The translations under genes and the position numbers were made by a program. From the NCBI RefSeq assembly GCF_014930455.1, contig NZ_JAAIYO010000002.1, positions 186,001-250,000 on the forward strand: a stretch of 64,000 bases of DNA, read 5' to 3'. Below, piece after piece: positions 1 through 38,720 of this stretch (positions are counted from its first letter, which is position 1; every line of letters begins with the position of its first letter). The DNA comes from Corallococcus soli. Its GTDB lineage: Bacteria; Myxococcota; Myxococcia; Myxococcales; Myxococcaceae. A model generated the notes under the pieces. It was given only the letters and a program-made list of their open reading frames with translations. It was not told the origin of the DNA and did no database searches.

Positions 1-60
1 GAAGCGGGTGGCGTCATCCGTCCGCGAGCCAATGAGCACGACCTTCTTCTTGGACGCCAT
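1..60 (-). CDS. N-terminal 20 residues of a truncated protein, possible ATP-grasp-type peptide ligase
   Basis: The reading frame runs off the left edge. The visible start is MASKKKVVLIGSRTDDATRF: a lysine-rich start, then a hydrophobic beta strand (VVLIG) and a polar SRTDD turn. MdnC/MvdD-type graspetide ligases often begin with a similar strand-turn arrangement, but so do other nucleotide-binding proteins, so the fragment alone does not identify the family. It begins 28 bases after the stop of the repeat protein at 89-1027 on the same strand, so the two are probably co-transcribed. That position, directly after a candidate multi-core precursor, is the main reason to suspect a modifying enzyme. 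Confidence is for a real gene start, not for the function. Confidence 0.5.
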   Translation of the reverse strand, partial: MASKKKVVLIGSRTDDATRF

Positions 61-88
61 GAGGACCGTGACTCCGCCAGGAGGCTGC

Positions 89-1027
89 CTAGAACGGGCT
101 GTCCATCCGGACCTTCAGCACGTTGCCTTCCAACGGCTTGAGCTCCGGGGGCTTCGCCTTGCCGCCGACGAGGTCGGGGGTGTCCATCCTCACCTTCAGC
201 ACGTTGCCTTCCAGCGGCTTGCGCTCCGGGGGCTTCGCGCTGCCGCCGACGAGGTCGGGGGTGTCCATCCTCACCTTCAGGACGCCCTCGAGGTTGCCGC
301 CACCCTTGACGGGGTTGGTGGGCTCGTCGGCGATGACCTTCACGATGACGCCGTCGTCGATGTCCTTGATCTTGCTGTCCCCGCCACCCTTGATGGGGTT
401 GGTGGGCTCGTCGGCGATGACCTTCACGATGACGCCGTCGTCGATGTCCTTGATCTTGCTGTCGCCGCCACCCTTGACGGGGTTGGTGGGCTCGTCGGCG
501 ATGACCTTCACGATGACGCCGTCATCAATGTCCTTGATCTTGCTGTCGCCGCCGCCCTTGACGGGGTTGGTGGGCTCGTCAGCGATGACCTTGATGGGCC
601 CGCGCGGGAAGCCGACGTCCTTGAAGTCGCCCTTGCCGCCGATGTTGCCCTTGAAGCCGATGTCGTCCCTGAAGTCGCCCTTGGCGCCGCCGACATCACC
701 CTTGAAGCCGATGTCCCCGCCGCCCTTGATGGGGTTGGTGGGCTCGTCCGCGATGACCTTCACGATGTGATCATCGATCTTCAGGCCGGAGTCCCCGCCG
801 CCCTTGACGGGGGTGGTGGGCTCGTCGGCGATGACCTTCACGATGACGCGGTCATTGGCCTTGAGGCCATCCTTGCCGGCCTTCGGGGCCTGCTCGAAGG
901 AGTCGCCCGGGCGCTTGAGGGCCTTCTTCAGCTCGGGCGCGCCCGCGGGCTTGCCCCCGGTCGTGGCGCTCTTCTGCGCCGTCTTGGGCGTTGAAACGAA
1001 TCCCGTCGGAGACTTGATCTTGGTCAT
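89..1027 (-). CDS. 312-residue repeat protein, candidate multi-core RiPP (graspetide-like) precursor
   Basis: No signal peptide, membrane segment or globular domain is visible. Residues 1-60 form a Lys/Ala/Pro-rich leader-like region. After it come six copies of KVIADEPT[TN]P[VI]KGGG (starting at residues 64, 90, 146, 174, 202, 230) and three copies of KVRMD[TS]P (251, 278, 305), the last ending the protein as KVRMDSPF. The two repeat types share K-V-x-x-D-x-P. Residues 105-143 are a separate Gly/Lys/Asp-rich insert. A leader followed by repeated short blocks rich in Asp, Glu, Thr and Lys resembles multi-core graspetide precursors, whose side chains are joined by ATP-grasp enzymes. The start has a good ribosome site (AAAGGA). 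A structural or adhesive low-complexity protein is the main alternative. The CDS is likely; the precursor role is inference. Confidence 0.8.
   Translation of the reverse strand: MTKIKSPTGFVSTPKTAQKSATTGGKPAGAPELKKALKRPGDSFEQAPKAGKDGLKANDRVIVKVIADEPTTPVKGGGDSGLKIDDHIVKVIADEPTNPIKGGGDIGFKGDVGGAKGDFRDDIGFKGNIGGKGDFKDVGFPRGPIKVIADEPTNPVKGGGDSKIKDIDDGVIVKVIADEPTNPVKGGGDSKIKDIDDGVIVKVIADEPTNPIKGGGDSKIKDIDDGVIVKVIADEPTNPVKGGGNLEGVLKVRMDTPDLVGGSAKPPERKPLEGNVLKVRMDTPDLVGGKAKPPELKPLEGNVLKVRMDSPF
341..592 (-). repeat. Three tandem 84-base units inside the repeat protein gene
   Basis: Each unit encodes 28 residues, KVIADEPTNP[VI]KGGGD followed by a spacer SKIKDIDDGVIV. Three units are contiguous (residues 146-173, 174-201, 202-229) and a fourth begins at residue 230 and changes into the second repeat type. 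The copies are nearly identical at the base level, which points to recent duplication or gene conversion. Confidence 0.9.
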
Positions 1028-4523: not shown

Positions 4524-4684
4524 GGGGGCCGAGCGTAGGCCATCCCGGGGGGACGGGGCACGCCCCGCGCGTGGCGGCGTCCCGGAAGGTCGCCACCGTC
4601 CCGTCCCGCTCCCAGGATGTCTGTCATTGCTGGCGGCGGGGACGGGCCTTCGCTGGACATGAAGCGCAGTCGGCTGGATTGAAA

Positions 4685-4814
4685 GACAGGCGATATCTGC
4701 CGGCACGCTTCGCAGGACAGGCAAGTATTGCCGCAAATGCATACACGGGGCGCCATGGCCGAAGGCAGGCGTAATCTGCCTTGGGTGGAGCCCCAAGGGC
4801 AGGCGATTTCTGCC
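4685..4814. repeat. Four 17-base palindromic repeats, possible regulator binding sites or hairpins
   Basis: Copies at 4685-4701, 4716-4732, 4764-4780 and 4798-4814 fit G[GA]CAGGC[GA]nnnn[CT]TGCC. Start-to-start distances are 31, 48 and 34 bases. Copies 3 and 4 extend into longer inverted repeats, AAGGCAG/CTGCCTT and AAGGGCAG/CTGCCCTT, where the added base is matched on both arms. Copies 1 and 2 are imperfect. The cluster lies about 110-240 bases upstream of the sigma54-like element, the usual distance for enhancer-binding protein sites. REP-like hairpins are the alternative. Confidence 0.6.
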
Positions 4815-4910
4815 CTTCCCCAGAGGGAGACGTGTCTCTGGAACGCCCAAGTCCAGTTACATTGAATTAACCGGATTAAGTCAGTTGATACGATATTTCA
4901 GCTATCGCTC

Positions 4911-4926
4911 TGGCTTTTGGGATGCT
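4911..4926 (+). promoter_or_regulatory. Candidate sigma54 (-24/-12) promoter
   Basis: TGGCTTTTGGGATGCT matches the sigma54 core at TGGC and TGC with the correct 12-base distance between the GG and GC dinucleotides. The -24 side lacks the usual ACG after TGGC. Predicted transcription start is near 4937, leaving a leader of about 317 bases before asnB. It lies in AT-rich DNA downstream of the palindrome cluster. Confidence 0.4.
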
Positions 4927-5004
4927 ATGTGCTGTGCCGGTCGGTTGGGATGAATCAAGCCGCCGGCCTGACCCGTCATGGGTCGTGGTTTCAGAGGGGG
5001 AGTG

Positions 5005-5052
5005 ATGGAAAAACATTGTAGCGGTATGGGGATGCATTCGACGACCGCCTGA
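5005..5052 (+). CDS. 15-codon upstream ORF, possible leader peptide
   Basis: ATG is preceded by AGAGGGGGAGTG, a strong Shine-Dalgarno sequence. The product would be MEKHCSGMGMHSTTA. It lies about 68 bases after the predicted sigma54 start site and stops 10 bases before the hairpin at 5063-5102. This resembles a leader peptide controlling a downstream operon by attenuation or translation-coupled folding. There is no run of a single amino acid to suggest the signal sensed. Being so short, it could be chance. Confidence 0.3.
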   Translation: MEKHCSGMGMHSTTA

Positions 5053-5062
5053 CGAGCCGCTC

Positions 5063-5102
5063 CTGGAAGGGCGCTCGGTCACCTGCGCGTTCTCCCTTCC
5101 AG
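5063..5102 (+). promoter_or_regulatory. Leader hairpin upstream of asnB
   Basis: CTGGAAGGG (5063-5071) and CCCTTCCAG (5094-5102) form a perfect 9-base stem around a 22-base loop that contains an inner CGC/GCG pairing. No T-run follows, so it is not a standard intrinsic terminator. It sits between the 15-codon ORF and asnB. Confidence 0.45.
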
Positions 5103-5253
5103 CGGGCTCCAATCCATTGCCAGAAAACCGTGGTCGGTCTGGACGTGTCTCCAGGACGGACGGCCATGTGCTTCGCCGTGTCGTGGGTGCCTTGGGGGCG
5201 CTCATGTCGCTGGCGCTGACGGACCCGTTTTATCTCGAAGGAAGCAGCCTGCT

Positions 5254-7206
5254 ATGTGCGGATTCATTGGCGTCTACCAGCGTACCCCCGCGTCTTTTGA
5301 CGACCGGGCCCTCCTCACCGCGCTGACCACCCTCCACCACCGCGGACCCGACGAGCGCAGCCTGTGGCATGACCCCGCCGGCCGCGCCGTGCTGGGGCAC
5401 GTCCGCCTGAGCATTATCGGCCTGGACAACGGCAAGCAGCCCATCGTCGCGGACGAGGGTGACATCACGCTGGTGGTCAACGGCGAGCTCTACGACCACG
5501 AGCGGATCCGCCGCGAGCTCCAGGCGCTCGGCTGTCAGTTCAAGACGGACTCCGACAGTGAGATCGCCCTGCACCTGTACCGCCGCTCCGGCCTCGCCGG
5601 GCTCAAGCAGCTGCGCGGTGAGTTCGCCATCCTGCTGTTCGACCGGCAGCGCCGCCTGATGCTGGCCGTGCGCGACCGCATGGGCATCAAGCCCATGTTC
5701 TACGCCCAGCACCGGGGCGCCTGGTACTTCGCGTCGGAGATCAAGGCGCTGCTGGCCGCCGGGGTCCCCGCGGAGTGGGACGAGGACGCCTACGCGAGCC
5801 GCGCCTTCTATCTGCGCGACCACACGCTCTTCAAGGGCGTGCGCAGCGTGCAGCCGGGGTGCTGGGTGATGGCCGACAGCGGTGGCCTGCACCACGGCCG
5901 CTACTGGGACATGGAGTTCGCCCGCCAGGACGCGCCGGATCCCTCCGACGAGCAGGGGATGATCGAAGCCGTCCGCGCCGCGGTGGAGAAGTCCGTGCGC
6001 CTGCGCCTGCGCGCCGACGTGCCCATGGGCGTCTACCTGAGCGGCGGCATTGATTCCTCCGCCATGCTGGGCGTGGCCACCCAGCTTTCGGGCCAGCCCC
6101 TGGACGCGTTCAACCTGTCCTTCACGGACATGGACGACTACGACGAGAACCGCTTCGCCCGGCTGGCCGCGGAGCACAACGGGGCGCGCTTCCACACCGT
6201 GGCCGTGTCCCAGGACGACCTGGCGGACCACTTCGAGCAGGCCCTCTGGCACAACGAGACGCCGTTCTTCAACGCGCACGGCGTGGCCAAGTACATCCTC
6301 AGCCAGACGGTGCGCGACGCCGGGATGAAGGTCGTCCTCACCGGCGAGGGCGCCGACGAGGTCTTCGCCGGCTACCCGCACTTCCGCCGCGACATGCTCC
6401 TGTACAACCCGGAGCGCCAGGACCCGAAGCTCGTCACCCAGCTGCGCCAGCGCATCCAGGAGAGCGAGAACGGCTACCAGCGGCCGGACATGCCCCAGGA
6501 CATCCACTGGATGGTGGAGCAGCTCAGCCACGGCGTGTCCTGGTTGGACAACCAGGCCGGCTGGTTCAAGGCGCTGGAGGCCCTGTACCGCAAGGACTTC
6601 CGCGAGCGCTTCGAGGGCACGGACCCCTACCGCCAGTTCTACGACCGGCTGGACCACCGCAACCTGGAGGGCCGCGACCCGGTCCACAAGTCCATGTACC
6701 TGTGGGCCAAGTCCTACCTGCCCAACTTCGTGCTCACCACGCTGGGCGACCGCATGGAGATGGCCCACAGCATCGAGGGCCGCGTCCCCCTGTTGGATCA
6801 CCACGTCGTGGAGCTGGCCTGCCAGATGCCCGTCTGGATGAAGGTGCGCGGCTCCACGGAGAAGTACGTCTTCCGCGAGGCGATGAAGTCGTACCTGCCG
6901 GATGCCCTCTACAAGCGCAAGAAGCACTACTTCCGCGCGCCCCCGGCCACGCTCCAGCAGAAGGGCCGGCTCTACCAGCTGGTGCGCGACGTGCTGAACG
7001 GCTCGGAGCTGGACTCGCTGCCCTTCTTCGACCCGGCCCGCGTGCGCGACCTGCTCCACCGCCTGCCGCAGTTGAGCGCCCATGAGCAGGGCCTGTTGGA
7101 TCCGATGCTGATGGAGCTGACCAGCCTGTGCCTGTTGCAGAACCGGTACTCGCTGCGCTCCTCCGGCTCGCAGCCCCTGTGGAGCGCCCGCGAGGAGGCC
7201 GCGTGA
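5254..7206 (+). CDS. asnB: Asparagine synthetase (glutamine-hydrolysing), AsnB family
   Basis: 650 residues, normal for the family. Met-Cys at the N-terminus supplies Cys2, the glutaminase nucleophile, followed by HHRGPDE and NGELYDH of the class II amidotransferase domain (about 1-210). The synthetase domain has the PP-loop SGGIDSS at about residue 263, then EGADEVFAGYPHFR and DRMEMAHSIEGRVPLLDHH. All catalytic signatures are present, so it should use glutamine and ATP to amidate an acid, aspartate or another carboxylate. The gene opens a four-gene cassette and overlaps the next gene by 4 bases (GTGA). Coupling to an oxygenase, an acyl-CoA dehydrogenase and a thioesterase suggests a specialised-metabolite role rather than housekeeping asparagine synthesis. 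Confidence 0.9.
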   Translation: MCGFIGVYQRTPASFDDRALLTALTTLHHRGPDERSLWHDPAGRAVLGHVRLSIIGLDNGKQPIVADEGDITLVVNGELYDHERIRRELQALGCQFKTDSDSEIALHLYRRSGLAGLKQLRGEFAILLFDRQRRLMLAVRDRMGIKPMFYAQHRGAWYFASEIKALLAAGVPAEWDEDAYASRAFYLRDHTLFKGVRSVQPGCWVMADSGGLHHGRYWDMEFARQDAPDPSDEQGMIEAVRAAVEKSVRLRLRADVPMGVYLSGGIDSSAMLGVATQLSGQPLDAFNLSFTDMDDYDENRFARLAAEHNGARFHTVAVSQDDLADHFEQALWHNETPFFNAHGVAKYILSQTVRDAGMKVVLTGEGADEVFAGYPHFRRDMLLYNPERQDPKLVTQLRQRIQESENGYQRPDMPQDIHWMVEQLSHGVSWLDNQAGWFKALEALYRKDFRERFEGTDPYRQFYDRLDHRNLEGRDPVHKSMYLWAKSYLPNFVLTTLGDRMEMAHSIEGRVPLLDHHVVELACQMPVWMKVRGSTEKYVFREAMKSYLPDALYKRKKHYFRAPPATLQQKGRLYQLVRDVLNGSELDSLPFFDPARVRDLLHRLPQLSAHEQGLLDPMLMELTSLCLLQNRYSLRSSGSQPLWSAREEAA

Positions 7207-8327
7207 GGGTCGCCATCATCGGCGCGGGCCTCAACGGCCTGGCCTGCGCCGTCATGCTCAAGCGCCTGGGCGTGGACTGCGTCGTCTTCGAGCGGGGCAA
7301 GGGACCCCGGGACTCGGGCACGGGCATCTACGTGTGGCCGCAGGCCATGCAGGTGCTGAGATTCGTGCTCAAGGACCGGAAGTTCCTCTCCCGGGGCCAG
7401 CCCATCGAGTTCCTGGACACGCACGACAAGCAGGGCCGGCTCATCCACAGCCAGCCGGTGCGCCCGGACGGCCTGGGCCTGCCCGCCCCGGCGATGATGT
7501 TCCTTCGCACGGAGCTGTTCCGCCTGCTGGCGGACAGCCTGGAGGAGGACGACATCCACTACGACATGGGCTGTGAGCGGCTGGAGAACGTGGGCGACCA
7601 GGTGCGCCTCACCTTCACCAACGGCCACTGCTTCGACTTCGACCTGGCCGTGGGCGCGGACGGCGTGTCGTCCACGACGCGCGCGTTCGTCAACCCGGGC
7701 CTCGTGCCGCATGACACGGGGCTGGTGGCCAGCCGGGGCGTGGTGGCGTTCGATTCGCCCCTACTGCACTCCGACCGCTGTCAGATCTTCACGTCCCACC
7801 ATTCCCGCGTGGTGACGTACCCGCTCAACAAGGCCAGCTCGCTGCGCTACTGGTTCGCCGCCTACCAGCACCGGAACCAGCCCCTGCTGGACAGGCAGGG
7901 CCTGCTGGAGCTGTTCGCGGCGCTGCCGGAGGACCTGCTGCGGATGATGGGACAGACGCCGGAGGAGGACATCCTCACCCACAAGCTCAAGGCGCTCACC
8001 GGCGAGGGCCAGTGGTTCCGGGGCCGCGTGGTGATGCTGGGCGACAGCATCCACGCGATGCTGCCCACCCTGGGCTACGGCCTGACGCTGGGGCTGGAGA
8101 ACGGCTTCATGCTGGCCCAGGCCCTGGTGGGGCACTGCGACGCTGGCCTGGAGACGGCGCTCCAGCGCTACGAGATCCGCGCGGCGCGGCGCTCCCGGGA
8201 GATGCTCCAGGTGATGAACGACTTCACCCAGCTCTACTACTTCGAACCGGAGGGCGAGGTGTCCCCGGCGCGCCTGTCCCCCATCGTCCAGCGCTTCCAG
8301 CACCTGGCGCAGACCACGGTCTTCTAG
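7203..8327 (+). CDS. FAD-dependent monooxygenase, p-hydroxybenzoate hydroxylase-like
   Basis: 374 residues from a GTG that overlaps the asnB stop (GTGA), indicating translational coupling. The Rossmann dinucleotide motif is at the very start (GAGLNGLACAVMLKRLGVD, then an acidic Glu at the end of strand 2). GADGVSSTTR near residue 150 is the DG motif, and GDSIHAMLPTLGYGLTLGLE near residue 280 is the second FAD motif with the helix after it. This is the class A flavin monooxygenase plan, acting with NAD(P)H and O2. The substrate cannot be told; the neighbours suggest an acyl or amidated intermediate. No signal peptide. Confidence 0.9.
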   Translation: MRVAIIGAGLNGLACAVMLKRLGVDCVVFERGKGPRDSGTGIYVWPQAMQVLRFVLKDRKFLSRGQPIEFLDTHDKQGRLIHSQPVRPDGLGLPAPAMMFLRTELFRLLADSLEEDDIHYDMGCERLENVGDQVRLTFTNGHCFDFDLAVGADGVSSTTRAFVNPGLVPHDTGLVASRGVVAFDSPLLHSDRCQIFTSHHSRVVTYPLNKASSLRYWFAAYQHRNQPLLDRQGLLELFAALPEDLLRMMGQTPEEDILTHKLKALTGEGQWFRGRVVMLGDSIHAMLPTLGYGLTLGLENGFMLAQALVGHCDAGLETALQRYEIRAARRSREMLQVMNDFTQLYYFEPEGEVSPARLSPIVQRFQHLAQTTVF

Positions 8328-8328
8328 G

Positions 8329-9420
8329 GTGGGCACGGACACGATGCCGCAAGCGTTCCGGGAGCAGGTGCGCGCCTTCGTCAACGACCACGTGCGGCCC
8401 CACGTGGACGCCTGGGAGCGCGACGGCGAGTACCCGCTGGAGCTCTACCGGCAGGCGGGCAGGGCGGGCCTGCTGGCCCTGGGGCGCTCCCCGGAGCAGC
8501 TCCCCGACGACCCCCGGGCGCTGGCGGTGCTGGTGGAGGAGCTGACCCTGGGCGGCGCCCAGGGCATCACCATGGGGCTGGCGTCGCACTTCGTCAGCCT
8601 CAGGGCGGTGCAGGGCAGCGACGCCCGGGTGGCGGCGCGCGTGGTGCCGGCGGTGCTCAAGGGCGACCAGGGCATCGTCCTCGCGCTGACCGAACCCCAG
8701 GCGGGCTCCGACCTGCGCGCCTTTGAATGCCGGGCCGAGCCGCACGACGGCGGCCACCGGCTCACCGGGGAGAAGCGCTTCATCTGCAACGGGGGCCGCG
8801 CGGACCTGCTGCTGGTGGGCGCGGTCCACGAGGGCGCCCTGGGGCTGTTCCTGGTGGAGGGCTCCGCGCCCGGCCTGTCCAGCACGCGGCTGGCGTGCCT
8901 GGGCTGGCGGTGCCTGCCGCTCGCCGCCCTGCGCTTCGACGCGACGCCCGCGCGCCTGCTCATCGCGGGGCGCGAGGCGGGGCGCCTGCTCCAGCAGTGC
9001 CTGCAACAGGAGCGGCTGAACCTGGCGGTGATGGCGGTGGCGTCCGCGGAGCTGGCGCTGCGCGACACGGTGGCGCACTGCCGTACGCGCCGCGTGGGCG
9101 GCGAGGCGCTGCTGGACAAGTCCGTCCTGCGCCAGCGCCTGGCCGAACGGCACTCCGAGCTGAGCGTGGTGCGGGTGTACGTGGAGCAGGCCGTGCGCTG
9201 GCAGGCCGAGGGGCAGCTGTCCCCGGCGCAGGCCGCCATCGCCAAGAACTCCGCGGTGGACGTGCTGGAGCGCATCGCGCACGAGGCGGTCCAGCTCCAG
9301 GGCGCGCACGGCTGCGTCGAACCGGCCGTCGTGGAGCGCATCTACCGCGACGCGCGGCTGCTGGGCATTGGCGGGGGCGCGCGGGAAGTCATGCTGGAAG
9401 TCATCGGACGGGCCTTGTGA
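8329..9420 (+). CDS. Acyl-CoA dehydrogenase family protein
   Basis: 363 residues from GTG 8329, one base after the previous stop; ATG 8344 is an alternative start. N-terminal helices (FREQVRAFVNDHVRPHVDAW) and the FAD-contacting ALTEPQAGSDLRAFECRAE block are typical. The C-terminus has LQGAHGCVEPAVVERIYRDARLLGIGGGAREVM in family order (RIYRDARL, then GGGAREV). In many family members the segment after RDAR carries the catalytic Glu (EGT); here it reads GGGA, as in some bacterial subgroups, so the base may lie elsewhere or the protein may act on a carrier-bound or unusual substrate. It probably introduces a double bond into an acyl thioester made or consumed by this cassette. Confidence 0.85.
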   Translation: MGTDTMPQAFREQVRAFVNDHVRPHVDAWERDGEYPLELYRQAGRAGLLALGRSPEQLPDDPRALAVLVEELTLGGAQGITMGLASHFVSLRAVQGSDARVAARVVPAVLKGDQGIVLALTEPQAGSDLRAFECRAEPHDGGHRLTGEKRFICNGGRADLLLVGAVHEGALGLFLVEGSAPGLSSTRLACLGWRCLPLAALRFDATPARLLIAGREAGRLLQQCLQQERLNLAVMAVASAELALRDTVAHCRTRRVGGEALLDKSVLRQRLAERHSELSVVRVYVEQAVRWQAEGQLSPAQAAIAKNSAVDVLERIAHEAVQLQGAHGCVEPAVVERIYRDARLLGIGGGAREVMLEVIGRAL

Positions 9421-32219: not shown

Positions 32220-35200
32220 TCACGTCGCGTCCAGCGGGAGCGCCACCGTGAAGGTGGCGCCTCCACCCTGCGTGGGGAGCAGGCGGATGCTCCCGGCGTG
32301 GGCCTCCGCGACGTGGCGGGCAATCCACAGGCCCAGCCCGAAGCCGCCGTGGTGGTTCACGGGAGCGGCGCGCTCGAAGCGCCCGAAGATGCGCTCCTGG
32401 TCCTCCGGCCCGATGCCCTCGCCGTGGTCCTGGACGGTGATGGTGGCGTGCTCCGCCGCCCGCTCCACGCTCACCTCCACCGGCCTGCCCGCTCCGAACT
32501 TGAGGGCGTTGTCGAGCAGGCTGTCGATGAGCTGGTGCAGCCGCTCGCGGTCGTAGTGGCCCACCACCGGCGCCGGGGCCTTCAAGCTCAGGGCGCAGCC
32601 CGCGCGGGCGGCCTTCTCCCGCGACTGCTCCACGACGGTGGCCGTCAGCTCCGCCAGGTCCACGTCCTGCTTCTCCAGCTCCAGTGGACCCGTGACGAAC
32701 TCCGACACGTCCAGCAGCTGCTCCACCAGGCGCGTGAGGCGCTGGACCTGCTTCTGTGTCGTGCGCGCCTTGTCCAGCAGGAGGGCCGGCGGCGCCTGGG
32801 CGTGGGCTTCGCGGGTGAGGCCCTGGACGTGGAGGGACAGGGCGCTCACGGGCGTGCGCAGCTCGTGGCTGACGAGCCGGAGGAATTCGTCGCGCACGCG
32901 CACGGACTCGCGCAGCGACTCCTTCTCGAACTCGTCGCGCACCACCTTGCGGCGCACGCGGGCCATGTCCAACTGGGTGCGCACCCGCACCAGCAGCTCG
33001 CGCGAGGAGAAGGGCTTCACCAGGTAGTCATCCGCCCCGGTGCGCAGGCCCTCCACCGTGGCCTCGTCGCCCGCCCGCGCGGAGAGCAGGATGATGGGGA
33101 TGGCGCGCGTGCGCTCATCGGCGCGCAGGGCGCGCACCAGGCCGAAGCCGTCCATCCTCGGCATCATCACGTCGGAGAGGATGAGGTCCGGCGGCCGGAC
33201 GCGGATCCGCTCCAGCGCCTCCAGCCCGTCCGTGGCGGTGTCGATGTCGGGGAAGCCCTGCCGCAGCAGCGCAGCGACGTAGGCGCGCAGGTCGGCGTTG
33301 TCGTCCACCAGCAGGATGCGGGACCGCGCCAGCTCCGGGGGCACCTCCAGCGCCGGGCCCCGTGACTCCAGGATGTCCGACGTGCCCATCCCCGCGGTCT
33401 CCGACGACCAGCGCCGGGCCTCCTCGACGAAGGGCTCGGCGCCGGTGGCGGCCACGCTGCGGGGGGCCTCCCTTTCGACGCGCTCCGCGGGCAGGTGGGC
33501 GAAGCCCTTCGGCAGCCGCACGGTGAAGGTGGTGCCCTCCCCGAGCGTGCTCGCCACCGAGACGGTGCCCCCGTGCAGCTTCACCAGCTCCTGCACCAGC
33601 GCGAGCCCGATGCCCGTCCCCTCGTGGCTGCGGCCCTGGGTGGCGCGGACGCGGTAGAAGCGCTCGAAGATGCGCGGCAGCTCCTCCTCCGGAATCCCCA
33701 CCCCGGTGTCCTGGACGGTGAGGACCGCCTGCGTGCCCTCCCACTGGAGCCACACGCGGATCTCCCCCTGGTGGGTGTACTTCACCGCGTTGGACAGCAG
33801 GTTGAGGACAACCTTCTCCCACATCTCTGGATCGACGTAGAGGGGCTCGGGCAGGGGCGGGCAGTCCACCACCAGCCGGAGGCCCGCGCTCTCCACCGCG
33901 GACTGGAAGGCGCTCGCGAGGCTCGTGGTGAAGGCCGCGAGGTCCGTGGGCAGGTAGCGGGCCTGGGCGCGCCCCGCCTCCATGCGGGAGAAGTCGAGCA
34001 GGGTGTTGACCAGCTTGAAGAGCCGCAAGGCATTGCGGCGCACCAGGTCCAGCGGCGCTCCGTCCAACGACTTCGTCGCCTTGGCCAGCGCGTCCTCGAC
34101 GGGGCCGAGGATGAGCGTGAGCGGCGTCCTGAACTCGTGGCTCACGTTGCTGAAGAACGCGGTCTTCGCCTGGTCCAGCTGCGCCAGCTCCTCCGCGCGC
34201 TGCTTCTCCTGCTCATAGGACCGCGCGCTGGTGATGCTGGCGGCCAGCTGCCGCGCCAGCAGCTGCAGGAAGCCGCGGTACTCGTCGTCCAGCGCCCGCA
34301 GGGGGCTCAGGCCCGCCACCAGCACGCCGGTGGTGTCGGCATCCGCGCCCATGGGCACCGGCAGGACGAGGGCGCGCGTCGTGGGCTCCGGCCAGGGCCC
34401 GCCGGTGAGGGGCCCGAAGCGGCTGGCCAGGTCCTCCACCAGGGCCTCCTGCCGCGAACGCGCGACGCTGGCGAGCGGCCAGGCCCGCGCGTCGTCCAGG
34501 CGCGACTCCAGGGGCGCGGCGGGCACGCCCCGGGCGAGGCCCGCGCAGCTCACCAGGCGGGCCGTGTCATCCTTGACGACGTAGAGGAGCGCGAAGGGCA
34601 GGTCGTGGCCCGCGTTCGTGAGCACGTCCTCCAGCGAGCGGAAGATGGCCTCCACCTTCTTGTCGAGCGCCGTCCGGATGGACAGCTCCCGGAGGATGGC
34701 GAGCCGGCGGTCCCCCACCACCTGCCGCGTCGTCTCGCTCGCGATGGCGAAGAGGCCCGCGATCTCCCCCGACTCACCGATGGTCGGGTTGTAGGACCAG
34801 GTGAAGTAGGACTCCTCGCGCAGGCCGCCCGGCCGGCGCGCGAAGTTGACGTTCCCGTCCTGGATGAAGAGGGGCTCGCCCGTTTCGTGGACGCGCTTCA
34901 TCAGGGGGCCCAGCTGGGCCCACTCCTCGGCGAGCGCTTCGTGCCCCCGGGCGCCCACCGTCCCCGGGTGCTTCGCGCCCAGGATGGGGCGGAACGGGTC
35001 GTTGTATAGCATGCGCAGCTCCGGACCCCAGAAGAGGATGATGGGGTAGGGCGAGCGCAGCATGGTGCTGACGGAGGTGCGCAGCGACTGGGGCCAGCCT
35101 TCCAGCGGGCCCAGCGAGTTCGTGGACCAGTCGAAGGCGCGCATGAGGCCGCCCATCTCTCCGCCTCCCTGGATGAAGGACTCGTCCTGCCCCCGTCGCG

Positions 35201-38200
35201 ACGGGGCCGGGGAGGGCTGGTGCCGCTCGGGCCACGCCGCGGGCGACACCGCCCGCCGCTCCGGTTCGGCAGGAAGGGAGAACCAGAAGGTGCTGCCCCG
35301 GCCCTCCTCGCTCTCCACCCAGATGCGCCCCCCGTGGCCCTCCACGATGCCCTTCGCGATGGAGAGGCCCAGGCCGTGGCCCTCCCGCTGCTTCTGGGCC
35401 GCGTGCCAGTAGCGGTCGAAGATATGGGATTGCACCCCTGGCGCGACGCCCGGGCCGGTGTCCGCCACGCCGAAGCGCACGTCCCGGCTCCCGGCCTGCG
35501 CCTCCACCCGCAGGCCCACGCTGCCGCCGTGCGGCGTGAACTTGATGGCGTTGGAGAGCAGGTTGCCGAGCGTCTGGAGGATGCGCTCCTTGTCGCACCG
35601 CAGGACGAGCCCCGGCGCCATGTCCACGGTGAAGCGCAGGCCCTTGTCGGCCGCCTGGGGCGCGAAGAGCTCCCGCGTCTCCCGGACGAGCTCCTCCACC
35701 GTCTGGGGGTGCACGTCGATGGAGAGCGTGCCCGCGTCGATGCTCGCCAGGTCGAGCAGGTCCGCGATGAGCAGGTTCATGCGGCCCACCGAGCGCCGGA
35801 TGGCGTCGGTGTGCTTGCGCAGCCGCGTCTCCCGCTCGTCGTTGCCCAGGGCCCGCTGGAGCAGCTCCGCCGACGTGCCGATGGCGGTGAGCGGGGAGCG
35901 CAGGTCGTGGCTGACGACGGCGAGCGTCTCCTCGCGGGCGCGGGTGGCCCGCCGGGACGCCTCCAGCAGGCGGGTGGTCTCCTGCGCGTGCATGCGCTCC
36001 GCGCGCAGGGCCTCCTGCCGCAGCCGGGACACGGTGAGCTGCGCGTTGACGCGCGCGAGCAGCTCGTTGGAGGAGAAGGGCTTGACCAGGTACTCGTCCG
36101 CGCCGCTGCGCAGGCCCTCGATGGTGGCCTCCTCCCCCGCGCGGGCGGAGAGGAGCACCAGCGGGATGGTCCGGGTGCGCTCGTCCTGGCGCAGGGCCTG
36201 GATCAGCTCCATGCCGTTCATGCCGGGCATCATCACGTCGGAGAGGATGAGGTCGGGCGGGTTCGCCCGGGCCGCGTCGAGCGCCTGGAGGCCGTGGGTC
36301 GCCGTCTCCACGCTCCAGTGCGGCGCCAGCAGGCGCGTGAGGTAGTGGCGCATGTCGGCGTTGTCGTCCGCCACCAGGATGCGGGTCTTCGCCTGGACGG
36401 AGGCGGAGGGCGTCCAGGCGGGGGCCGGCGTCGCGGCGGGAGCCCCGGCCGTGTCCCACTGGGACAGCTCCGCGAGGAACGCCTCGGCCTCGCGGCTCGC
36501 GGCGACGTGCGTCCCGTCCCCGCCCGCGCGCCCTTCGGGCAGGTGCGCGCAGCCCGTGGGCAGGCTCACCGTGAAGGTGGCTCCCTCGCCGGGACGGCTT
36601 CGCACGCTCACGGTGCCGCCCTGGAGCTTCACCAGCTCCCGCACCAGGGCCAGCCCGATGCCCGTCCCTTCGTGGCTGCGGCCCCGGGCGCCCTCCACGC
36701 GGTGGAAGCGGTCGAAGATGCGGGGCAGCTCCGCCTCCGGGATGCCCACGCCGGTGTCCTGGACGTGGAGGTCCACGCGCGTGTCCGCCCACCGGAGCGC
36801 GACGCTTATCTCCCCCTCGAAGGTGAACTTGAAGGCGTTGGAGACGAGGTTGAGGACAACCTTCTCCCACATCGTCGGGTCGACGTGGACGGCCTCGGGC
36901 AGGGGCGGGCAGTCCACCACCAGCCGGAGGCCCACGGCCGTCATCGCCGAGTCGAAGCTGCTGACCAGGTCCCGGGTCAGCGCGGACAGGTCGGTGGGGG
37001 CGAAGGAGGCCTGGGTGCGGCCCGCTTCGATGCGGGCGAAGTCGAGCAGGGTGTTGACGAGCTTCTGGAGCCGCAGGCCGTTGCGGCGCACCAGCTCCTG
37101 ACGCTCGCGCTGCGGCGGTGGGAGGGGCGCGGCGGCGTCCGCGAGCCCGTCCTCGATGGGCCCCAGCATGAGGGTGAGGGGCGTGCGGAACTCGTGGCTG
37201 ACGTTGCTGAAGAAGGTCGTCTTGGCGCGGTCCAGCTCCGCCAGCGCCTCCGCGCGCTTCGCCTCCTCCTCATACGCCCGGGCGCTGGCGAGGGAGGCGG
37301 CGAGGTTGCCGGTCACCAGCTCCAGGAACTCGCGGTACTTCGGATCGCGTCCGAGCAGGGGGGCGAGGCCCACCACGAAGAGCCCCGCGGGCTTCACGTC
37401 ACCCGGCCGGACCACCGGCATCACCAGCGCGGAGGTGGGAGTGGGCAGGCCCTCGCGCGAGGGCAGGGCGCCGAAGCGCTCCCCCAGCCCGTCCACCTGC
37501 ACCGGACGGCCCGCGCCCACGACCGGGGCGAAGGGCCACGGGGCCGCGCCCAGCTCCACCCGTGAAGGCCAGGCCGGGCCGCTCGCGTCGGGGTGGGTGT
37601 GGGCCGCCAGGTGGGCGCCGCTCCCCTGCGCATCCAGCAGGTAGAGCGCGGCGAAGGGGATGTCCCAGGGGTCCTCCGACAGGGCGTCCAGCGCCCTGGC
37701 GCAGGCGTCCGCGACGCTCTGGGTGCCCGTCGTGCGGGCCGTCATCTTCTGCAGCAGGGTGATGCGGCGCGCGTTCAGTACCTGGGCCGTGGTCTCGAGG
37801 ACGACGGTGAAGATGCCGCCCACGCCGCCGCTCTCGTCACGGATGGGGCTGTAGGAGAAGGTGAAGTAGCTCTCCTCGGTGAAGCCGTGCCGGTCGACGA
37901 GCAGGAACTGGTCCTCCGACCAGGTCGCCTCGCCCCGGGCGAGCACCCCTTCGAGCATGGGGCCGATGATGTTCCAGATCTCCGGCCAGCACTCCTGGCC
38001 GCGCTGCCCCACCGAGCGCGGGTGCTTGTTGCCGAGGATGGACGCGTACGCGTCGTTGTAGAGCATCACCATGTCCGCGCCCCACCACACCAGGATGGGG
38101 GAGCGGCTGTTCAAGCAGGTGCTCACCGTCGTGCGCAGCGACTGGGGCCACGCGCTCACGGGTCCGAGCGCCGTCGCGGACCAGTCCTTCGCACGCATGA

Positions 38201-38318
38201 GGGCGCCCATCTGCCCGCCGCCGCCGAGCACCTCCGCGGTGTCATCGCGTGACGCAGACGGGGAGGCGTCCACGCGGGAGCTTTCCTGAGGCGCGCGGGA
38301 GTCGGTGCCGTGGCTCAT
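32220..38318 (-). CDS. Giant sensor protein with four histidine-kinase cores and two receivers
   Basis: 2032 residues from MSHGTDSRAP; a longer frame upstream is not supported. The order is PAS (about 30-170), GAF (190-330), HisKA/HATPase 1 (His about 376), receiver 1 (from about 645), HisKA/HATPase 2 (His about 803), then the same set again: PAS (from about 1055), GAF, HisKA/HATPase 3 (His about 1393), receiver 2 (from about 1668), HisKA/HATPase 4 (His about 1818). Key residues are kept in all four kinases (SHEFRTPLT, SHDLRSPLT, SHEFRTPLT, SHELRTPVS; N-boxes such as LNLVSNAFKF) and both receivers (LILSDVMMP). No membrane segment is seen, so it is probably cytoplasmic. The halves are clearly related, so it arose by duplication and fusion of a PAS-GAF-HK-REC-HK gene. 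Confidence 0.88.
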   Translation of the reverse strand: MSHGTDSRAPQESSRVDASPSASRDDTAEVLGGGGQMGALMRAKDWSATALGPVSAWPQSLRTTVSTCLNSRSPILVWWGADMVMLYNDAYASILGNKHPRSVGQRGQECWPEIWNIIGPMLEGVLARGEATWSEDQFLLVDRHGFTEESYFTFSYSPIRDESGGVGGIFTVVLETTAQVLNARRITLLQKMTARTTGTQSVADACARALDALSEDPWDIPFAALYLLDAQGSGAHLAAHTHPDASGPAWPSRVELGAAPWPFAPVVGAGRPVQVDGLGERFGALPSREGLPTPTSALVMPVVRPGDVKPAGLFVVGLAPLLGRDPKYREFLELVTGNLAASLASARAYEEEAKRAEALAELDRAKTTFFSNVSHEFRTPLTLMLGPIEDGLADAAAPLPPPQRERQELVRRNGLRLQKLVNTLLDFARIEAGRTQASFAPTDLSALTRDLVSSFDSAMTAVGLRLVVDCPPLPEAVHVDPTMWEKVVLNLVSNAFKFTFEGEISVALRWADTRVDLHVQDTGVGIPEAELPRIFDRFHRVEGARGRSHEGTGIGLALVRELVKLQGGTVSVRSRPGEGATFTVSLPTGCAHLPEGRAGGDGTHVAASREAEAFLAELSQWDTAGAPAATPAPAWTPSASVQAKTRILVADDNADMRHYLTRLLAPHWSVETATHGLQALDAARANPPDLILSDVMMPGMNGMELIQALRQDERTRTIPLVLLSARAGEEATIEGLRSGADEYLVKPFSSNELLARVNAQLTVSRLRQEALRAERMHAQETTRLLEASRRATRAREETLAVVSHDLRSPLTAIGTSAELLQRALGNDERETRLRKHTDAIRRSVGRMNLLIADLLDLASIDAGTLSIDVHPQTVEELVRETRELFAPQAADKGLRFTVDMAPGLVLRCDKERILQTLGNLLSNAIKFTPHGGSVGLRVEAQAGSRDVRFGVADTGPGVAPGVQSHIFDRYWHAAQKQREGHGLGLSIAKGIVEGHGGRIWVESEEGRGSTFWFSLPAEPERRAVSPAAWPERHQPSPAPSRRGQDESFIQGGGEMGGLMRAFDWSTNSLGPLEGWPQSLRTSVSTMLRSPYPIILFWGPELRMLYNDPFRPILGAKHPGTVGARGHEALAEEWAQLGPLMKRVHETGEPLFIQDGNVNFARRPGGLREESYFTWSYNPTIGESGEIAGLFAIASETTRQVVGDRRLAILRELSIRTALDKKVEAIFRSLEDVLTNAGHDLPFALLYVVKDDTARLVSCAGLARGVPAAPLESRLDDARAWPLASVARSRQEALVEDLASRFGPLTGGPWPEPTTRALVLPVPMGADADTTGVLVAGLSPLRALDDEYRGFLQLLARQLAASITSARSYEQEKQRAEELAQLDQAKTAFFSNVSHEFRTPLTLILGPVEDALAKATKSLDGAPLDLVRRNALRLFKLVNTLLDFSRMEAGRAQARYLPTDLAAFTTSLASAFQSAVESAGLRLVVDCPPLPEPLYVDPEMWEKVVLNLLSNAVKYTHQGEIRVWLQWEGTQAVLTVQDTGVGIPEEELPRIFERFYRVRATQGRSHEGTGIGLALVQELVKLHGGTVSVASTLGEGTTFTVRLPKGFAHLPAERVEREAPRSVAATGAEPFVEEARRWSSETAGMGTSDILESRGPALEVPPELARSRILLVDDNADLRAYVAALLRQGFPDIDTATDGLEALERIRVRPPDLILSDVMMPRMDGFGLVRALRADERTRAIPIILLSARAGDEATVEGLRTGADDYLVKPFSSRELLVRVRTQLDMARVRRKVVRDEFEKESLRESVRVRDEFLRLVSHELRTPVSALSLHVQGLTREAHAQAPPALLLDKARTTQKQVQRLTRLVEQLLDVSEFVTGPLELEKQDVDLAELTATVVEQSREKAARAGCALSLKAPAPVVGHYDRERLHQLIDSLLDNALKFGAGRPVEVSVERAAEHATITVQDHGEGIGPEDQERIFGRFERAAPVNHHGGFGLGLWIARHVAEAHAGSIRLLPTQGGGATFTVALPLDAT

Positions 38319-38720
38319 GTCCGGAGCGTTAACACACCTCCACCGGACGGGACCCGGGGAGGACGCGCGCAAGCCGTGCCCCCCTGCGGACCGCTGCTCC
38401 CCTGGCCCCTCTCCGTCCGCGCATGCTGACAAGTCAACGTTCGACGTGGCCGGAGGAACAATGCGGCGCGCGGTCCAAGCGAGCCTGGGCTCCCCTGGCG
38501 AAGGACGTCCCCCGCTGAAGGGCGCGCCTTCCGGAAGGTGGCCTCTCGCACCGGAGGGAGGGGCGGCTGCCGCCGCAAAGGCCAGCGGTCCACAACAGCG
38601 TGCCGTGCCGTCCGGTCCTGGACCGCCCTGAAGGATGAACTGCCCCGGTCCCCCTGCCCGGGGCCCCTGGCCGTCACCAGTTCCCTGGGGCGTCACGGGT
38701 CCAGGGGCGGGGGGCATCAC
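38319..38720. other. 402-base divergent region between the giant kinase and mvaA
   Basis: It must hold the promoters of both genes. I see an inverted repeat TGACAAGTCA (38427-38436) and a 56-codon candidate ORF (38461-38631). No convincing -35/-10 pair or sigma54 site was found. Confidence 0.5.
38461..38631 (+). CDS. Possible small ORF of 56 residues upstream of mvaA
   Basis: ATG preceded by GGAGGAACA, a strong ribosome site. The product (MRRAVQASLGSPGEGRPPLK and a Gly/Ala/Pro-rich remainder) is low in complexity, has no recognisable domain, and may be chance in GC-rich DNA. Confidence 0.22.
   Translation: MRRAVQASLGSPGEGRPPLKGAPSGRWPLAPEGGAAAAAKASGPQQRAVPSGPGPP

Follow-up and report, generated by a model that had tools for sequence, protein, structure and literature searches.

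A probable corallotide (group 15 graspetide) cluster in Corallococcus soli with a nine-unit precursor and a short leader, and related loci beyond the genus

The left edge of the analysed window (the whole stretch of 64,000 nucleotides, G000:C2:186001-250000, from the 9.44-Mb genome of a predatory myxobacterium of soil) very probably belongs to a corallotide, i.e. group 15 graspetide, cluster corABCD, whose chemistry in this strain we infer from that of Corallococcus exercitus. Corallotide was characterised from the latter species in March 2026; the published cluster is comprised of CorA with KxxxD repeats, CorB (TIGR04187), CorC (PF13640) and CorD (PF00144). In that system every KxxxD receives a Lys-Asp isopeptide from CorB, which makes Lys-Asp amides only; CorC hydroxylates carbon 5 of the lysine, besides binding CorB and activating it, and CorD is non-essential (PMC13097080). 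Direct observation covers the genes and their order, together with the repeats and the conserved active-site residues described below. The chemistry itself is already published for corallotide, and what is added here concerns the leader, the spread of the locus, a gene fusion and variation in corD.

The precursor gene corA occupies window positions 89..1027 on the minus strand, starts with ATG and encodes 312 residues (32.3 kDa; computed mass 32,261.5 Da) with a GC3 of 0.94. An initial annotation had described, leaving the strand unstated, a repeat protein of this length with a leader-like region of about 60 residues and nine K-V-x-x-D-x-P repeats; the gene proved real, and by our count 63 residues precede the first repeat lysine and nine units follow. 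Six units are KVIADEP and three KVRMD(T/S)P. When the same residues were shuffled 10,000 times, KxxxDxP occurred 0.39 times on average and at most 4 times, as opposed to nine times in CorA. According to the alignment, and all on the minus strand, KVIADEP units 1 to 6 lie at 818..838, 740..760, 572..592, 488..508, 404..424 and 320..340, with predicted isopeptides Lys64-Asp68, Lys90-Asp94, Lys146-Asp150, Lys174-Asp178, Lys202-Asp206 and Lys230-Asp234, respectively. They are followed by two KVRMDTP units at 257..277 (predicted Lys251-Asp255) and 176..196 (Lys278-Asp282) and by KVRMDSP at 95..115 (Lys305-Asp309). A Gly/Lys/Asp-rich insert of the GFKGDVGG-KGDF type (596..715, minus strand) is specific to the clade in an alignment of four close relatives.

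In the DNA, the array is made up of 84-bp tandem repeats (3.5 copies, 96% match) and 81-bp repeats (2.3 copies, 92%), so that the number of units shifts through recent in-frame duplication; precursors of relatives carry 5 to 9 strict units. CorA has no significant family in Pfam or NCBIfam. The second place in the genome that matched in DNA sequence (L002, C16) was dismissed as chance, being 69 bp within a peptidase gene. In the CorA of Corallococcus sp. CA053C (L012:3875-4960, plus strand), a His-rich insert, HHGHGHVHHGHHTH, separates the leader from the units.

Reading the DNA past the left window edge revealed the order corA, corB, corC, corD, all on the minus strand, which bore out the guess of a graspetide locus. 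The second gene, placed by the initial annotation 28 bases downstream and considered a possible ATP-grasp enzyme, indeed starts at window position 60, 28 bases past the corA stop, and its protein opens with MASKKKVVLIGSRTDD. It is complete (corB, G000:C2:185122-186060, minus strand, 312 residues), with only its first 20 codons inside the window (1..60). CorB matches the ATP-grasp families RimK and GSH-S_ATP in Pfam, and its best NCBIfam model is TIGR04187, “ATP-grasp ribosomal peptide maturase” (E 2e-24, under the model's 350-bit cutoff). Its best PDB relatives are 7drm, 7drn, 7dro and 7drp, with 7drm matching at E 2.7e-40 across 297 residues. We take these entries to be PsnB, the plesiocin ligase. 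All CorB-type ligases carry E-[F/Y/L/W]-R at the site of D-V-R in the 7drm sequence; C. exercitus CorB, orthologous to the enzyme whose activity was demonstrated, likewise has EFR. The nearest named relatives of the genome belong to Corallococcus, with 96% identity of the ligase in C. praedator and C. terminator. In the CorB gene of the MAG PMG_225 (L015:666-1520, minus strand) about 43 internal residues are missing in frame, either by real deletion or by assembly error.

The 2OG-Fe(II) oxygenase gene corC (C2:184419-185219, minus strand; PF13640, E 8.7e-9), predicted to add the hydroxyl, lies outside the window and thus outside the DNA seen initially. It overlaps corB; as the earliest start codon falls within that gene, the beginning of corC is uncertain. 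The HxD...H...R residues of CorC are intact. A single-sequence search of PDB with CorC gave no match, while a CorC profile recovered OGFOD1 (5e-6) and HIF prolyl hydroxylases (~0.01), which agrees with the fold only. Also outside the window, corD (C2:183070-184323, minus strand) encodes a serine beta-lactamase fold (PF00144, E 6e-69). Values of dN/dS against the nearest relatives are 0.19-0.22 for corB and 0.29-0.41 for corC, and both enzymes are therefore under purifying selection. A cyclase of the ATP-grasp type accompanied by a second enzyme acting on the cyclised core is also known from fuscimiditide and the graspimiditides (group 13); there, a leader is required and the second enzyme is a PIMT methyltransferase that gives an aspartimide (PMC13003496), in place of the 2OG oxygenase of the window locus.

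Several other features of the window were recorded. A DUF3175 gene (1151-1522) precedes corA in the same orientation; several relatives likewise have it upstream of their corA, but the C. exercitus group does not. Consecutive genes at 5254-9420 resemble those for asparagine synthase, FAD monooxygenase and acyl-CoA dehydrogenase, and possibly belong to another secondary-metabolite cluster. A multi-domain histidine kinase of 2166 residues at 32220-38720 has four HisKA/HATPase pairs and two receiver domains.

The association of precursor and ligase is regular: the search for homologous precursors beside ATP-grasp genes, suggested as a check of the graspetide proposal, found every one directly upstream of such a gene. 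It would be possible to regard CorA, which is large, of low complexity and without a Pfam family, as a structural or regulatory repeat protein that forms no macrocycles and merely adjoins an unrelated RimK-like amino-acid ligase. This explanation is extremely improbable given the strict linkage of precursor, ligase and oxygenase in about 20 genomes, leaderless and fused forms included, and the biochemistry of the homologous corallotide system.

The assignment to corallotide is based on the comparison with C. exercitus. All four genes, their order, the KxxxD-x-P units and the catalytic residues match between the two loci; window CorB is 85% and CorC 80% identical to the C. exercitus proteins, and the precursors are homologous. 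The 17-residue peptide solved by NMR, NPDDGVIVKIVADDPLR (PMC13097080), is encoded in the C. exercitus precursor that we retrieved (L013). The initial annotation did not recognise the core motif among known graspetides; it corresponds to the KxxxD motif of corallotide. Differences are evident as well. Window CorA has nine units where five have been published, of the types KVIADEP and KVRMDTP as opposed to KIVADDP, KVMMDDP and KIRMDDP, carries the GFKG/KGDF insert, and has an apparently unfolded leader of 63 residues where C. exercitus has a helical domain of about 86.

Conservation of residues was followed in 140 D-x-P sites from 20 precursors. Lysine occupies position -4 in 134 of them, flanked by V or I, and none of the 134 sequences matching the unit context has lost the Asp. 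An unbiased inspection of alignment columns found K91/D95/P97, K119/D123/P125 and K192/D196/P198 invariant. Position +1 of the unit sites is mostly D, E or S, while the residue after Pro is variable across precursors, so that Thr does not serve as a donor in general. Since Thr and Glu positions are unconserved, ester chemistry through them was set aside, and only Lys-Asp amides are expected in window CorA. Of the ester or amide links through Asp, Glu, Thr and Lys originally envisaged, the amide thus stands in the form of Lys-Asp and the part assigned to Thr and Glu does not. Window CorA has additional KxxxD sites, KGGGD (five) and KDIDD (three), which are not kept across the family but might in principle react.

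Plesiocin (group 2) resembles the window system in having a multi-repeat precursor and a single PsnB-type ATP-grasp enzyme, and in its myxobacterial origin. Its core forms TTxxxxEE ester hairpins. A plesiocin-like product, with Thr hydroxyls bound to Asp or Glu as esters, possibly beside Lys-Asp amides, could be proposed on the grounds that the 7drm ligase is the nearest PDB entry to CorB and that TTP or TNP adjoins DEP in the units of the window clade. Direct reading of window CorA found neither TTxxxxEE nor any EE pair, and the Thr after the unit is unconserved, position +3 being T in 64 of 140 sites and I, V, L or others in the rest. In addition, the homologous system yields only Lys-Asp amides (PMC13097080). 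We consider esterification of this kind highly unlikely; one Lys-Asp amide per unit, and an oxygenase in addition, would distinguish the window locus from plesiocin. The PFFARFL leader and TxKxPSD core of microviridin (group 1) are also absent from window CorA, as read directly.

The simplest mechanism for the window member would be the published corallotide one, operating on nine units. Using ATP, CorB would phosphorylate the Asp of every [V/I/L]-K-[V/I]-x-x-D-x-P unit in CorA; attack by the Lys lying four positions before it would then close a Lys-Asp isopeptide ring, up to nine in all. CorC would bind and activate CorB and, with 2-oxoglutarate, Fe(II) and O2, hydroxylate carbon 5 of each ring lysine. 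CorD would be an accessory protein. CorB acting alone is predicted to change the mass of CorA by about -162 Da, and nine hydroxylations would bring the net change to about -18 Da.

The leader of window CorA (residues 1-63; 839..1027, minus strand) is short and proline-containing compared with those of other Corallococcus. Leaders of about 88-101 residues are common to 13 precursors from Corallococcus and the genus g19, while lengths of 63-66 residues were found in the window strain, C. praedator, C. terminator and the MAG PMG_225. In the alignment, members of this short-leader clade lack about 13 central residues, have an altered leader end and carry prolines in place of the leucines of others. 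In C. exercitus, residues 1-86 of CorA make up a helical domain that binds CorB, CorC and CorD, an example that does not define the group (PMC13097080). AlphaFold2 placed helices in the C. exercitus leader at 7-21, 30-37, 47-59 and 64-75 (block pLDDT about 57-78) and none in window CorA, whose model, too poor as a structure (mean pLDDT 29), was used solely as absence of predicted helix. Alignment depth (four rows for the window protein, nine for C. exercitus) may explain part of this contrast; the full-length helical N-terminal domain is clearly absent from window CorA. The window clade is nested among long-leader Corallococcus relatives in the ligase tree, and its short leader therefore looks like a loss. 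Leader-only dN/dS was 1.8 to C. praedator and 0.39 to C. terminator, with 60 codons being too few for interpretation. With the helical leader eroded, substrate choice in the window clade is probably governed chiefly by the repeats, or else by a short segment at the N-terminus. As most of the enzyme-binding leader is missing, the efficiency of modification could differ from that in C. exercitus.

Group 15 has been reported from Corallococcus only (PMC13097080). Cor-like loci reach beyond this genus, and that statement needs widening. The order corA-corB-corC is present in three g19 genomes (G110, G113 and G116) and in G043 of genus g3, whose 176-residue precursor has a recognisable leader and five KVKMDEP/KIKMDEP units. 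Two g4 genomes, G051 and G050, encode near-leaderless CorA-like precursors (L045:7310-7633, minus strand, and L046:4823-5326, plus strand, respectively) with five units of the KIRAD(D/E)P type. These start with MRIR and proceed at once to GGGIKKI(R/A)AD, leaving 11-12 residues before unit 1 counted from MRIR, and their spacers are rich in collagen-like G-K-P triplets. Both enzymes are kept beside them, at about 40-44% identity. A CorC profile search over the phylum added two genomes of other families. In G185 a CorB-CorC fusion of 587 residues (L071:2850-4613) comes directly after a precursor-like protein of 470 residues (4547-5959; both minus strand) with only two KIRADDP units within a large, otherwise unrelated sequence. 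G182 (L070:5045-8148, minus strand) carries CorB, CorC, a further, distant ATP-grasp and, at the end of the contig, an ORF in which VIKVRADDP occurs twice, as VIKVRADDPID repeats, with GEEDGG spacers. No corD was found in the stretches examined around corC of G043, G050, G051, G110, G116 and C. sicarius, of which all but the last lie outside Corallococcus. Across these loci CorB and CorC form the conserved pair, and the leader and CorD vary.

An eroded leader could also mean that the cluster is decaying in the window clade and that CorA is now processed poorly. The loss of about 13 central leader residues, the gain of prolines and the lack of a predicted helix are in line with decay, and a true relic exists in the sister Corallococcus genome G070 (L047:5144-7275, plus strand), where a piece of the corA leader is joined to the end of corC, corB is lost and corD is intact; G069 had no cor match. 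Decay is nevertheless improbable for the window clade: corB and corC are under purifying selection, nine units are intact and were recently amplified with the reading frame maintained, the same leader form is shared by C. terminator, C. praedator and a MAG, and relatives with almost no leader persist. More tentatively, and at somewhat less than an even chance, cor might be an old, leader-optional pathway in which CorB and CorC read the repeat unit itself and can act fused. On this reading, recognition of the unit would explain why the leader is eroded in the window clade and essentially absent in two other genomes. If true, cor would be a naturally occurring machine that staples long structural repeats independently of a leader.

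As for the role of the product, our guess is a stapled, collagen-like structural or matrix protein in preference to a small antibiotic that diffuses, since none of the cor genes was recognised as encoding a transporter or protease and the published product aggregates and has no antibacterial activity (PMC13097080). This guess leans on absence of evidence and on the aggregation and CD data of that one paper. The natural variation described here, from the nine units and eroded leader of window CorA to the leaderless relatives, the fusion and the absence of CorD, bears on the mechanism of the family. The fusion of ligase and oxygenase independently supports the CorB-CorC complex that has been reported, and a naturally leaderless pair would be an obvious tool to staple repeat proteins.
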